Part shown: piece by piece, positions 8,440-14,267 of the stretch
Numbering within the stretch: position 1 is the first letter of the stretch
How the letters are laid out: every line of letters begins with the position of its first letter
From: Myxococcaceae bacterium
GTDB lineage: Bacteria > Myxococcota > Myxococcia > Myxococcales > Myxococcaceae
Length of the DNA stretch: 64,000 nucleotides
Assembly (NCBI GenBank): GCA_016793095.1
Contig: JAEUJQ010000072.1
Span: 1 to 64,000, forward strand
Direction: 5' to 3'
The notes under the pieces: generated by a model
What the model was told of the DNA's origin: nothing
Databases searched by the model: none
Seen by the model: the letters and a program-made list of their open reading frames with translations, nothing else
Position numbers and translations under genes: made by a program

Positions 8440-8736
8440 GTGAAGCAATGCCTGTCGTGCAACGGCCTCGTCCCCGACACCCTCGACGTCTGTCCGAACT
8501 GCGCGGTGACGCGGAGGAAGAAGGGCCTCAAAGTGGTGGCTGCGGCGAGCCTGGTGTCGCTCGCGCTCAGCAACTGCGGCAGCCAGATGGCACTCTACGG
8601 CGTGCCCTGTACCTCGAAGCAGGTCGACGGCGGCAACAACGGCTGCCTGGGCGCCTGTGACACGCTGCTGCCCGATGGCGGCGACCCGCGGAAGGACCGC
8701 ACCAGCTCCTGCTTCACCGATGGCGGCACGCCCTGA
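8440..8736 (+). CDS. small zinc-ribbon / Cys-rich protein preceding a radical SAM enzyme
   Basis: 98 residues from a GTG at 8440, chosen because it places a zinc ribbon at the N-terminus: C4xxC7 and C18xxC21 (MKQCLSCNGLVPDTLDVCPNC). A longer upstream reading to 8287 is low-complexity and unlikely. After a basic stretch (RRKKG) comes a hydrophobic segment (about 32-44) that ends ALSNCG, which could be a transmembrane helix or a lipobox-like site. The C-terminal half has five more cysteines (in NCGS, VPCT, GCLGAC, SSCF) and Asp/Gly motifs. The gene overlaps the radical SAM gene by 17 bp, so the two are co-translated. By analogy with RiPP systems it is a candidate substrate or partner of that enzyme, but a zinc ribbon at the N-terminus is not usual for a precursor peptide. 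Confidence 0.7.
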   Translation: MKQCLSCNGLVPDTLDVCPNCAVTRRKKGLKVVAAASLVSLALSNCGSQMALYGVPCTSKQVDGGNNGCLGACDTLLPDGGDPRKDRTSSCFTDGGTP

Positions 8737-10000
8737 CGACTCCGCCTCGTCGGCTCGCGACGAGGTGTTCCGCCGCTTCGACGTCCGCACGCCGCTGAGG
8801 CCCAGCTACGTCGTCTGGGAGCTCACCCTCGCGTGCGACCAGCCCTGCACCCACTGCGGCTCGCGGGCAGGCACCGCGCGCGAAGGCGAGCTCACGACCG
8901 CGCAGGCCCTCGGCGTCGTCGACCAGCTCGCTGCGATGGGCACCTTCGAGGTCGTGCTCATCGGCGGCGAGGCCTACCTGCACCCGGGCTTCCTCGAGCT
9001 CGTGCGCGCGCTGCGCTCGAAGAACATCCGCCCCACCATGACGACGGGTGGTCGCGGCATCACGCCAGCGCTCGCGAGGTCCATGCGGGAGGCCGGACTC
9101 CACTCGGTGTCCGTGAGCATCGACGGGCTCGAGGTCACGCACGACCTCATGCGCGCGAGCCCCGGCAGCTTCGCCTCGGCCACCGCCGCGCTGCACGCCT
9201 TCCGCGACGTGGGCCTGCGCACCGCCGCGAACACGAACTTCAACCGCCTCAACCAGGCCGACGCCGAGCCCCTCTACGAGCACCTGCGCGCCTGTGGCAT
9301 CAGCGCCTGGCAGGTGATGCTGACGACGCCCATCGGCCGCGCGTCCGACCGGCCCGCGATGCTGCTCCAGCCGTGGGACCTGCTCGACCTCATGCCCCGC
9401 CTGGTGGCGCTCAAGGAGCGCGGCTTCGTCGACGGCGTTCTGCTGATGCCGGGGAACAACCTGGGGTACTTCGGCCCCGAGGAGACCGCCCTGCGCTCGC
9501 CTGCGAAGGGCATGACCGACCACTGGATGGGCTGCCAGGCCGGCAAGTACGTGATGGGCATCGAGGCCGACGGCGGTGTGAAGGGCTGCCCGTCGCTGCA
9601 GAGCCGGCACTACCTCGGCGGCTCGCTCGCGAACCAGTCGCTCGAGGCCATCTGGAACGAGACGAAGCCGCTCGCCTTCGCGCGGGCGCGCACGGTGGAC
9701 GACCTCTGGGGCTTCTGCCGCTCCTGCCCCTTCGCCGCGACCTGCCTCGGCGGCTGCACCTTCACCGCGCACGCGTTCTTCGGCCGACCGGGCAACAACC
9801 CGTACTGCCACTTCCGGGCGCGCGCACTGCAGGCAGAAGGAAAGCGGGAGCGCCTCGTGCTGAAGGAGGCCGCTCCCGGTGAGCCCTTCGACAATGGGTT
9901 GTTCGAGCTGGTCGAGGAGCCGTTCGACGCGCCGGATCCGCGACCGCCGACGCCGAGGGAGCTGGTCAAGGTGACGAAGCTCCCCCGGCCGAAGGCCTGA
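8720..10000 (+). CDS. radical SAM/SPASM domain protein
   Basis: 426 residues from the ATG at 8720; an earlier in-frame start at 8657 would lie wholly inside the upstream gene. The radical SAM cluster motif is C39xxxC43xxC46 (CDQPCTHC). The SPASM domain is complete: C272-x12-G-x4-C290, then C333xxC336x5C342x3C346, then C363, the seven-cysteine pattern that binds auxiliary Fe-S clusters in peptide-modifying enzymes of the anSME/PqqE type. A GGE motif (IGGEAYLHPG, near 82-90) binds SAM in this superfamily. The C-terminal 50 residues are Pro/charged and variable. Family knowledge: SPASM proteins usually modify ribosomal peptides or enzyme side chains. The overlapping small Cys-rich gene upstream is the obvious candidate partner. 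No dedicated exporter or protease is adjacent. Confidence 0.92.
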   Translation: MAARPDDSASSARDEVFRRFDVRTPLRPSYVVWELTLACDQPCTHCGSRAGTAREGELTTAQALGVVDQLAAMGTFEVVLIGGEAYLHPGFLELVRALRSKNIRPTMTTGGRGITPALARSMREAGLHSVSVSIDGLEVTHDLMRASPGSFASATAALHAFRDVGLRTAANTNFNRLNQADAEPLYEHLRACGISAWQVMLTTPIGRASDRPAMLLQPWDLLDLMPRLVALKERGFVDGVLLMPGNNLGYFGPEETALRSPAKGMTDHWMGCQAGKYVMGIEADGGVKGCPSLQSRHYLGGSLANQSLEAIWNETKPLAFARARTVDDLWGFCRSCPFAATCLGGCTFTAHAFFGRPGNNPYCHFRARALQAEGKRERLVLKEAAPGEPFDNGLFELVEEPFDAPDPRPPTPRELVKVTKLPRPKA

Positions 10001-12173: not shown

Positions 12174-12298
12174 CGCGCTCGCCCTGGCCCGACGGGCCTA
12201 CGGCTGCCCGCGGGCCGCTTCGCCAGCGCTGGGTTATCGGCGCGCTCGCCCTGGCCCGACGGGCCTACGGCTGCCCGCGGGCCGCTTCGCCAGCGCTG
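12174..12298 (+). repeat. two tandem copies of a 58-bp stop-codon-linked repeat
   Basis: Copies at 12174-12231 and 12241-12298, identical over nearly all 58 bases and 67 bp apart. Each starts CGCGCTCGCCCTGGCCCGAC and ends in GCTTCGCCAGCGCTG. The ends can pair (GCGCT/AGCGC, then GGCCCG/CGGGCC after an internal loop), giving an imperfect hairpin. The first copy begins 7 bp after the stop of the 11744 gene, in sense orientation. The second copy runs through the last codons of the convergent RNA-ligase fusion gene. Confidence 0.85.
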
Positions 12299-13716
12299 AG
12301 CCTCGGCAACCGCACGCCCGACAGCGCCTCGAGCAGCGCCCGCGCCCGCACCTCACTGCGGGCAACGATGCGGCGGCCCGAGCCCGACAGCGTCGCGTCA
12401 CGCAGCAGCACCGGCTGCACCACCATCCACGCGAGTCGGTTCAGCCACGCCCGCAGGAAGCGGGTGCCGTCCTCCGACTCGTACGCGCGGGTGAGCGTGA
12501 CGCGCTGGCGGGCGTCGAGGTCGAGGCGCTCGAAGGCCGCGCCCAGCTCCCACGCCGCGTCAGCGGAGAGCGCGCACTCGAAGTCGAGGAAGCGCGCGGT
12601 GCCGTCCTGGAGCCGCACGTGTTCGGGCTTCAGGTCTCCGTGACAGACGACCCGCTCGGAGACGAGGCCGCGCTCCAGGGTCCGGAGCAGCGGCAGCAGC
12701 GCCTTCTTCGTCGCCAGTGCCCACCCATGACGGGGGCCGAGGGCGTCGAGCGCGCGCGTCAGGTGGGCCGAGGGTCGGTCTGGGAGGGCGTCGAGGGGCA
12801 GCGCGGTGGCCACGCGGTGCAAGGCCGAGAGCGAGCGGCCGACCGCGGCGACCTCGTCGAGCGACACGCCACGTCCGAACCGGCGCCCGCCGAGCCGGCC
12901 CATCACCACCGCCGAACCGCGCACGGACCTCAGCCCGGGGCCCAGGCGACCGACGCGCCGCAGGCGCTCGACCTCGACCTGCTGACGGCCGCGCTGATCA
13001 GCCCCGAAGCGCTTGGAGACCGAGCCTGCGCGCCCGCCCGCCCTGGGGAGCGGAGGACGACGCGGCGCTGCCGGAGCCTTCAGTGCGCGCTCGAGGAAGT
13101 CGTGGCGCACCAGCTTGAAGCAGCGCTGCCCCTGCACCACGATGAGGCCCTCGGCGGGTCCGCCGAAGCGTGAGGTGCGCGTGAGGGGCCAGAGCGACTC
13201 CACGTCGCGCACGGTGCCCCGGAAGACCGGCGTCGGCACCTCGAAGCCCGCGCGTGAGAGCAGCTCGTGCGACCGCTGCGGGCCCAGGAACGTTCTCCGC
13301 GCCTGGTGCACGAGGTCGAAGGCGACGAAGGGCACGTCACGGCGCGGATACGGCAGCCGCATGGGCGCGCCCTCGAGCCACTCCCCGTAGACGACGAGGT
13401 CATTCCCCAGCAGCCGCCACAGCGCGCCGAGCCGGTCGAACGCGAAGTCCACCATCGGCCACAGGCCAGGTCCGATGCGGTCGAGCGTGAGGAGCCCGTG
13501 GATGCGGGAGTGGATGCGTGGCACGCCGCGCACGAAGCTGAAGCCCACGTTGAGGCCGTCGAGCTTCTCGTACGCGACGAACGGCCGCGAGAGGACCGCC
13601 CGCGTCTGCCGCGGCGAGAGCACGACGTCGCCCTCGCTGAAGGCGCTCCCGGCGAGGTGCGGAATCGCCGGGTAGCGCGTGCCGAAGACGAGCTTCGGGT
13701 AGGTGGTGATGCCCAC
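12265..13716 (-). CDS. RNA ligase domain fused to an APH/Bud32-like kinase fold
   Basis: 483 residues from a GTG at 13716. Residues 1-215 carry all the motifs of an ATP-dependent RNA ligase nucleotidyltransferase: motif I EKLDG with the nucleophile K51, motif III VYGEWL (109-114), IIIa PFVAFDLVH (129-137), IV EGLIV (189-193) and V FKLVR (200-204). After a Pro/Arg linker (215-235), residues 235-470 look like an aminoglycoside-phosphotransferase or Bud32-type kinase: a candidate beta-3 lysine in SVSKRF (K235), the Brenner motif CHGDLKPEHV with D361, and the metal-binding DFE at D378. Known ligase enzymes join 5'-phosphate and 3'-OH RNA ends; a kinase-fold partner could phosphorylate RNA, a nucleotide or a small molecule. 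I do not know this combination as a named family. It follows the RG-rich gene by 9 bp, so they form an operon. The last 11 residues are encoded by the antisense of the 58-bp repeat. Confidence 0.85.
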   Translation of the reverse strand: MGITTYPKLVFGTRYPAIPHLAGSAFSEGDVVLSPRQTRAVLSRPFVAYEKLDGLNVGFSFVRGVPRIHSRIHGLLTLDRIGPGLWPMVDFAFDRLGALWRLLGNDLVVYGEWLEGAPMRLPYPRRDVPFVAFDLVHQARRTFLGPQRSHELLSRAGFEVPTPVFRGTVRDVESLWPLTRTSRFGGPAEGLIVVQGQRCFKLVRHDFLERALKAPAAPRRPPLPRAGGRAGSVSKRFGADQRGRQQVEVERLRRVGRLGPGLRSVRGSAVVMGRLGGRRFGRGVSLDEVAAVGRSLSALHRVATALPLDALPDRPSAHLTRALDALGPRHGWALATKKALLPLLRTLERGLVSERVVCHGDLKPEHVRLQDGTARFLDFECALSADAAWELGAAFERLDLDARQRVTLTRAYESEDGTRFLRAWLNRLAWMVVQPVLLRDATLSGSGRRIVARSEVRARALLEALSGVRLPRLSAGEAARGQP

Positions 13717-13725
13717 CGCGACGAA

Positions 13726-14169
13726 TCAGGTCGTCGAGCCGCGCGGGGCAGGAGCTGGACGACGGCCGCCCGTGGAGACGCCCGTGTTGCGGCCACGGCC
13801 ACCGCCGGTCGAGACGCCGGTGTTCCGGCCACGACCGCCACCCGTCGAGACGCCCCAGTTGCTGGTGTCGAGCTGCTTGAGCTTCTCCTGGCGCTTCTTC
13901 GCCTCGCTCGTCAGCTCACCGGCGAGCTCGCCAAACTGCTTCTTGTACTTCCCCTCGGTGAGGCGGTTCGCCATGTCGAACGAGGTCTTCACCTCGCTCA
14001 GCGTCGCCGTCGGCTTCTTCGAGGTCCGCAGCTCGGAGACGGCGGCCTTCTTGATGTCGCTCCACTCCTTGTTCGAGATGGGGCTCGGCTGCTTCGTGGA
14101 GCCCTTCGTCGAGAGGGCCTTGAGGAGTGCTCCGGAGACGTTGGCGTTGGGGTTCTTGACGGTCGGCAT
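13726..14169 (-). CDS. small Lys-rich protein with RG/GGR-repeat tail
   Basis: 147 residues from the ATG at 14169. Residues 1-105 are helical and lysine-rich (KEWSDIKKAAVSELRTSKK, KKQFGELAGELTSEAKKRQE) with no signal peptide. The tail has three copies of GVSTGGGRGRNT-like text followed by RRPAPAPR. Tandem RG/RGG-type tails commonly bind RNA or DNA; that is family-level knowledge about the composition, not about this protein. It sits 9 bp upstream of the RNA-ligase/kinase fusion on the same strand, so an RNA-binding partner role is a reasonable guess. It could instead be a structural low-complexity protein. Confidence 0.75.
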   Translation of the reverse strand: MPTVKNPNANVSGALLKALSTKGSTKQPSPISNKEWSDIKKAAVSELRTSKKPTATLSEVKTSFDMANRLTEGKYKKQFGELAGELTSEAKKRQEKLKQLDTSNWGVSTGGGRGRNTGVSTGGGRGRNTGVSTGGRRPAPAPRGSTT

Positions 14170-14267
14170 GGGTGGCTCCTTCGAGTGGGGCGCCGACCTG
14201 AGCACACTCCTGCCGACGGCGGAAAGTGCCTTGCGATGCGGTGTCGTGCCTCTCAGAGTGATGCGTC

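Follow-up and report, generated by a model that had tools for sequence, protein, structure and literature searches.

The tRNA ligases of yeast and plants and the bacterial Pnkp combine a ligase and a P-loop kinase in one polypeptide, together with an end-healing phosphatase or phosphodiesterase, and the kinase of Pnkp1 is a P-loop polynucleotide kinase. To our knowledge, P-loop kinases and end-healing enzymes are the only partners with which RNA ligases have been paired. The locus described here likewise encodes a ligase fused to a kinase, but the kinase is a protein-kinase-like APH domain. Several parallels exist with the Pnkp1-Rnl-Hen1 repair complex, in which kinase and RNA ligase are encoded together, Rnl being co-translated with its kinase, the kinase product feeds the ligase, and the latter is activated by a third protein, Hen1 (PMC4411300). 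However, the kinase of that complex carries a phosphatase domain and its third protein is a methyltransferase (PMC4411300), whereas the present system has an APH-fold kinase, lacks both phosphatase and methyltransferase, and has a small and basic third protein. A protein-kinase fold is capable of RNA phosphorylation, as demonstrated by the archaeal tRNA 2'-OH kinase ArkI, an enzyme of this fold that phosphorylates tRNA; however, ArkI is an ePK/AQ578-type and not an APH kinase, and no ligase partner is mentioned in the accessible part of its description (PMC9095486). APH/choline kinases, such as the aminoglycoside phosphotransferases, share the kinase domain family PF01636 with the present system, but are stand-alone small-molecule kinases without a ligase or small-protein partner. 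Finally, the candidate defence cassette HEC-03 resembles the system in its related RNA ligase and in its occurrence in myxobacteria, but there the ligase is accompanied by a DUF3696-type ATPase and a PIN-like protein, and the HEC-03 ligases fall outside the clade of the system.

The window, by which we mean the entire stretch of 64,000 nucleotides analysed, contains a small gene followed by a fusion gene (Table 1). An earlier note, made on the sequence alone, had proposed that an RNA-ligase core and a kinase-fold domain reside in a single polypeptide, and Pfam profile searches of the 483-residue protein bear this out: residues 45-194 match PF09414 (50 bits, cutoff 27; E 5e-13) and residues 269-424 match the APH family PF01636 (56 bits, cutoff 23; E 5e-15). 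The ligase part contains the motifs KLDG (51), GEW (111), EGLIV (189), and KLVR (201), and the kinase part HGD (359) and DFE (378). The C-terminal half, which had been supposed to have a kinase fold, thus matches the APH family with a score well above the Pfam cutoff; as to the APH/Bud32 type suggested for it, the domain is APH/choline-kinase-like, but no RIO or Bud32 family was among the Pfam and NCBIfam matches. The stop codon of the small gene and the GTG start of the fusion gene are separated by a gap of 9 bp, in agreement with the earlier description. Scans for Rfam families, promoters, and terminators gave no matches.

Table 1. Features of the ligase-kinase locus (positions refer to the window)
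Feature	Position	Strand	Extent and key residues	Basis
Ligase-kinase fusion gene	12265..13716	(-)	483 aa, GTG start	PF09414 and PF01636 matches; orthologues in G001/G003
RNA-ligase nucleotidyltransferase domain	13081..13716	(-)	Residues 1-212; K51, E112, E189, K201	PF09414, 50 bits; no C-terminal domain
Interdomain linker	13009..13080	(-)	Residues 213-236	25-35% identity and dN/dS 0.76-1.13 between congeners
APH-type kinase domain	12268..13008	(-)	Residues 237-483; HGD 359-361, DFE 378-380	PF01636, 56 bits; alignments
Small basic protein gene	13726..14169	(-)	147 aa, pI 10.6	Congener orthologues; Shine-Dalgarno; dN/dS 0.31-0.36
Lys-rich N-terminal body of small protein	13852..14169	(-)	Residues 1-106	78-80% identity to congener copies
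Gly/Arg/Thr tail with GVSTGGGRGRNT repeats	13729..13851	(-)	Residues 107-147	Repeat positions; [ST]TG units kept in congeners
AAGGAG Shine-Dalgarno of small gene	14176..14181	(-)		Sequence

Orthologues of both genes were identified in the congeners G001 and G003, with 66-67% identity across almost the whole length of the fusion and 75-76% for the small protein. Between congeners, dN/dS values of 0.25-0.46 were obtained for the ligase, the kinase, and the body and tail of the small protein, all of which are thus under purifying selection, whereas the interdomain linker evolves under little constraint. The difference between the domains and the linker (Table 1) shows that both halves of the fusion are maintained.

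The sample consisted of 195 Myxococcota genomes that were searched with the fusion and with ligase and kinase profiles. The search with the fusion returned adjacent kinase and ligase matches in distant families, and reading of the loci gave nine systems among the 195 genomes, neither the kinase family nor the ligase family being found without the other. These nine genomes rank first with the ligase profile, followed by a drop in E value from 3e-56 to 3e-39, and the identical nine rank first with the kinase profile, where the drop is from 5e-80 to 1e-18. The order small gene, kinase, ligase, with a 4-bp overlap between the latter two, is present in G183, G010, G182, G192, and G193. The window genome (G000), G001, and G003 possess the ligase-kinase fusion, and G185 was found to contain a kinase-ligase fusion, the reverse of the window order. 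In a maximum-likelihood tree, the nine system ligases are set apart from other myxobacterial RNA ligases (support 89/92), G185 is nested with the unfused G192 (97/98), and the window genus forms a branch of its own (100/100); these positions indicate that the two fusions arose independently. The kinase tree agrees with that of the ligases. Taken together, the fusions in opposite order, the congruent trees, and the exclusive co-occurrence provide good support for kinase, ligase, and small protein forming one functional unit.

Three of the seven congeners possess the system, which keeps its place beside adh in all three; since adh persists in G006, G002, and G004, where the system is missing, the system is accessory. 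A strict-motif scan of 84,980 species genomes recovered only four of the known loci, besides one unrelated ligase (L091). No copy of the system was detected in the plasmids, phages, and viral contigs searched, and the ligase, the kinase, the small protein, and a HEAT-like protein encoded at some of the loci gave no PADLOC match. Neither PADLOC, NCBIfam, nor a literature search that covered few subscription papers yielded a record of the gene set, which, within the records searched, is previously undescribed and carried by a rare subset of myxobacteria.

The ligase, which consists of the nucleotidyltransferase domain only, is assigned to the RNA-ligase family PF09414, and RNA joining is predicted for it. 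The G010 and G192 ligases match this family with 41.7 and 35.4 bits, respectively. The motif I Lys, motif III Glu, motif IV Glu, and motif V Lys are invariant in the eight system ligases aligned and are also present in the G185 fusion. The window genome encodes four further PF09414 RNA ligases (C66, C9, C65, and C63).

Across the systems, the kinases conserve the HGD motif, the Asp of DFE, and the alphaC Glu, and eight of the nine also have the beta3 Lys, which is replaced by Arg in G193. Alignments revealed that the N-lobe of the window-genus kinase is about 9 residues shorter than that of its relatives, and that the metal-binding Asn after HGD is a His in the window genus and in G193, but an Asn in the other five lineages. 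With its short N-lobe and this His, the window kinase might be weak or regulatory. Its nearest relatives of solved structure are aminoglycoside and choline kinases; AlphaFold modelling of this kinase domain alongside four relatives reached a pLDDT of just 42, and the result was discarded. The kinases of G183, G010, and G182 carry a C-terminal CMP-kinase-like domain with an intact P-loop, which is missing from the other six loci. This domain matches PF02224 with 123-129 bits in G010 and G182, whereas in G183 it reached 88.6 bits with the (d)CMP-kinase model TIGR00017, under the cutoff of 136, which argues for a paralogue. A Pnkp-type layout of P-loop 5'-kinase, phosphatase, and ligase was not encountered in any of the loci.

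A small basic protein gene lies immediately upstream of the kinase and ligase in all nine loci. The supposition that this gene would be kept beside the ligase in relatives is thus upheld for the gene, but not for its RG repeats, which are not conserved outside the genus. The three tail repeats that had been described correspond to GVSTGG units that begin at residues 106, 118, and 130, but of the 12-residue repeats two are complete and one is partial. Small proteins from five distant lineages form a single family of 120-159 residues that is absent elsewhere in the 195 genomes. One of these distant members was modelled by AlphaFold as five helices (pLDDT 72); a Foldseek search with this model gave no significant PDB match, so that no fold is claimed for its EF-hand-like helix-loop-helix pairs. 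An acyl-carrier-protein-like GADS motif was also considered and dropped, as the window genus lacks it. In profile comparisons with the distant family, the similarity of the G193 small protein was weak (P 0.003) and did not suffice to demonstrate homology by sequence, and that of the window-genus protein was not significant (P 0.033). The bodies diverge past clear homology between lineages, and it is by their position, size, basic charge, and tail that the window-genus and G193 proteins are taken as equivalent to the distant family. The tails end or continue as SPYGG, TYHG, TYYG, RPYGGGGGGGGGSFGSFS, GYSGGGG...RYAGT, PSGTY, or SNWGVSTGGG..., and those outside the window genus are different Gly/Ser/Thr/Tyr sequences, some of just five to nine residues. 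In every tail, a Ser or Thr and an aromatic residue lie no more than two positions away from a Gly (PYGG, YHG, YYG, GYSGG, SGTY, NWG), and the RG repeats are thus the genus-level version of a more general Gly/Ser/Thr/aromatic tail. A basic pI, of 9.2-11.6, is common to all 27 proteins or domains of the small, kinase, and ligase classes, but 31% of the background proteins also reach a pI of at least 9.2, basic proteins being common in these GC-rich genomes.

The reading that we tentatively favour, giving it a chance somewhat short of even, is that the ligase adenylylates and joins a phosphate supplied by the kinase, the most likely substrate being an RNA to which the small protein is bound. The small protein would bind RNA via its helical body and its basic or Gly/Ser/Tyr tail and, because the ligase has no C-terminal domain, it may supply RNA binding or activation in place of that part, as Hen1 does for Rnl (PMC4411300). 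An RNA end or a ribose hydroxyl would be phosphorylated by the kinase, either unaided or, in some members, together with the CMP-kinase-like domain, and the ligase would adenylylate that phosphate via Lys51-AMP and join it to a hydroxyl, so that the whole would resemble the Pnkp1-Rnl-Hen1 complex with an unrelated kinase. The exclusive co-occurrence, the opposite fusions, the agreeing trees, the 4-bp overlaps, the invariant ligase residues, the membership of the ligase in an RNA-ligase family, and the basic nature of the proteins are counted in favour of action on RNA, as are the precedents of Rnl with its kinase and activator and of ArkI. Counted against it are that no 3'-end phosphatase or other end-healing enzyme gene was seen in the operons, that basic proteins are common in such GC-rich genomes, that the window kinase has a short N-lobe and lacks the usual metal-binding Asn, and that some tails, SPYGG and PSGTY among them, lack the length needed for binding RNA unaided. 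We know of no characterised APH-fold enzyme that phosphorylates RNA. The pairing of an RNA ligase with a kinase of the antibiotic-resistance type is conserved, has been fused twice independently, and is led by a dedicated small protein; it implies that the kinases are a new class acting on RNA or else that the ligase acts on something besides two RNA ends, and it points to a novel route by which RNA is phosphorylated and then joined or tagged. Both enzymes are small enough for direct expression and testing.

The main, though rather unlikely, alternative is that the small protein is the substrate, in that the kinase phosphorylates Ser, Thr, or Tyr of the tail and the ligase, treating the phosphoprotein like a 5'-phosphate, adenylylates it or joins it to an RNA 3'-OH, giving a nucleotidylated or RNA-linked protein. 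The constant position of the small gene directly upstream of the enzymes, the restriction of the five-locus family to these loci among the 195 genomes, and the preservation of Ser/Thr and an aromatic residue near Gly in every tail while the bodies diverge would all fit such a role, as would the fact that the fusions weakly resemble LxmK, a lanthipeptide kinase. The G183 operon contains a second predicted small gene (L043:11117-11437, minus strand) with a different body that ends in SPYGA, like the SPYGG of the first, but the overall similarity of the two proteins is not significant, as 139 of 2000 shuffles were as good. Furthermore, the window small-protein body is more conserved than the ligase, unlike most precursor peptides, the window tail contains no Tyr, and no exporter, protease, or lyase gene is present in the operons. 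We are not aware of a ligase of this fold that uses a phosphoprotein. We consider it improbable that the small protein, once its tail has been phosphorylated by the kinase, is joined to RNA (or AMP) by the ligase to form a covalent protein-RNA conjugate; if true, this would be a post-translational modification run by an RNA ligase, for which we know of no precedent.

Similarly improbable is a small-molecule or nucleotide pathway in which a nucleoside or metabolite receives a first phosphate from the APH domain, a second from the CMP-kinase-like domain, and then AMP from the ligase-fold enzyme, with the small protein as carrier or scaffold. APH and choline-kinase relatives do act on small molecules, and the fusion of a CMP-kinase-like domain with an intact P-loop to three of the kinases is in line with this idea, but that domain is missing from most loci, no biosynthetic or transport genes are common to the loci, all three core proteins are basic, and the ligase comes from an RNA-ligase family. 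RNA repair, modification, or defence had been proposed at the outset; the first two are plausible, but a defence or conflict module that repairs or modifies RNA during phage infection appears very improbable. The patchy, accessory distribution, with the system absent beside adh in three congeners, and the related ligases in HEC-03 would agree with such a role. Against it stand the lack of PADLOC matches and of copies in the plasmids, phages, and viral contigs searched, the constant position of the system next to adh wherever a congener possesses it, in three cases, and the fact that no toxin or sensor gene was seen at the loci.

The HEAT-like gene adjoins six of the nine loci and in two further genomes sits in a mutS-recJ run without the system. 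Examples are found at L042:9565-10182, L129:4921-5634, L130:3567-4247, and L081:3458-4081, and the C-terminal KPWMTR of the protein is kept across distant families (KAWMTR in G185). A cassette in which a related RNA ligase is accompanied by a DUF3696-type ATPase and a PIN-like protein recurs in myxobacteria and was also found on an Azotobacter plasmid (L084:5637-8193, L086:3991-6595, L050:6662-9233, L049:4855-7443, L082:6104-7778, and L097:3060-5678). In L084, the one cassette tested, the ATPase and the PIN-like protein match the PADLOC models HEC-03B and HEC-03A, respectively, whereas the ligase has no PADLOC model, and it may therefore be an unlisted third member of HEC-03.

A radical SAM gene is located near the system in all three congeners, but was not counted as part of it since it is not adjacent to the system in the distant loci. 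In the window (8440-10000, plus strand), a Cys-containing ORF of 98 residues, for which there was no NCBIfam match, directly precedes the radical SAM/SPASM protein, which resembles nif11-class peptide maturases with 439 bits, under the cutoff of 725; the two possibly form a modified-peptide pair. The window also contains an exact 46-bp direct repeat (12186-12231 and 12253-12298, 67 bp apart), the 33-bp core of which has no other copy in the genome at up to 2 mismatches, and the second copy of which encodes the final residues and the stop codon of the fusion.
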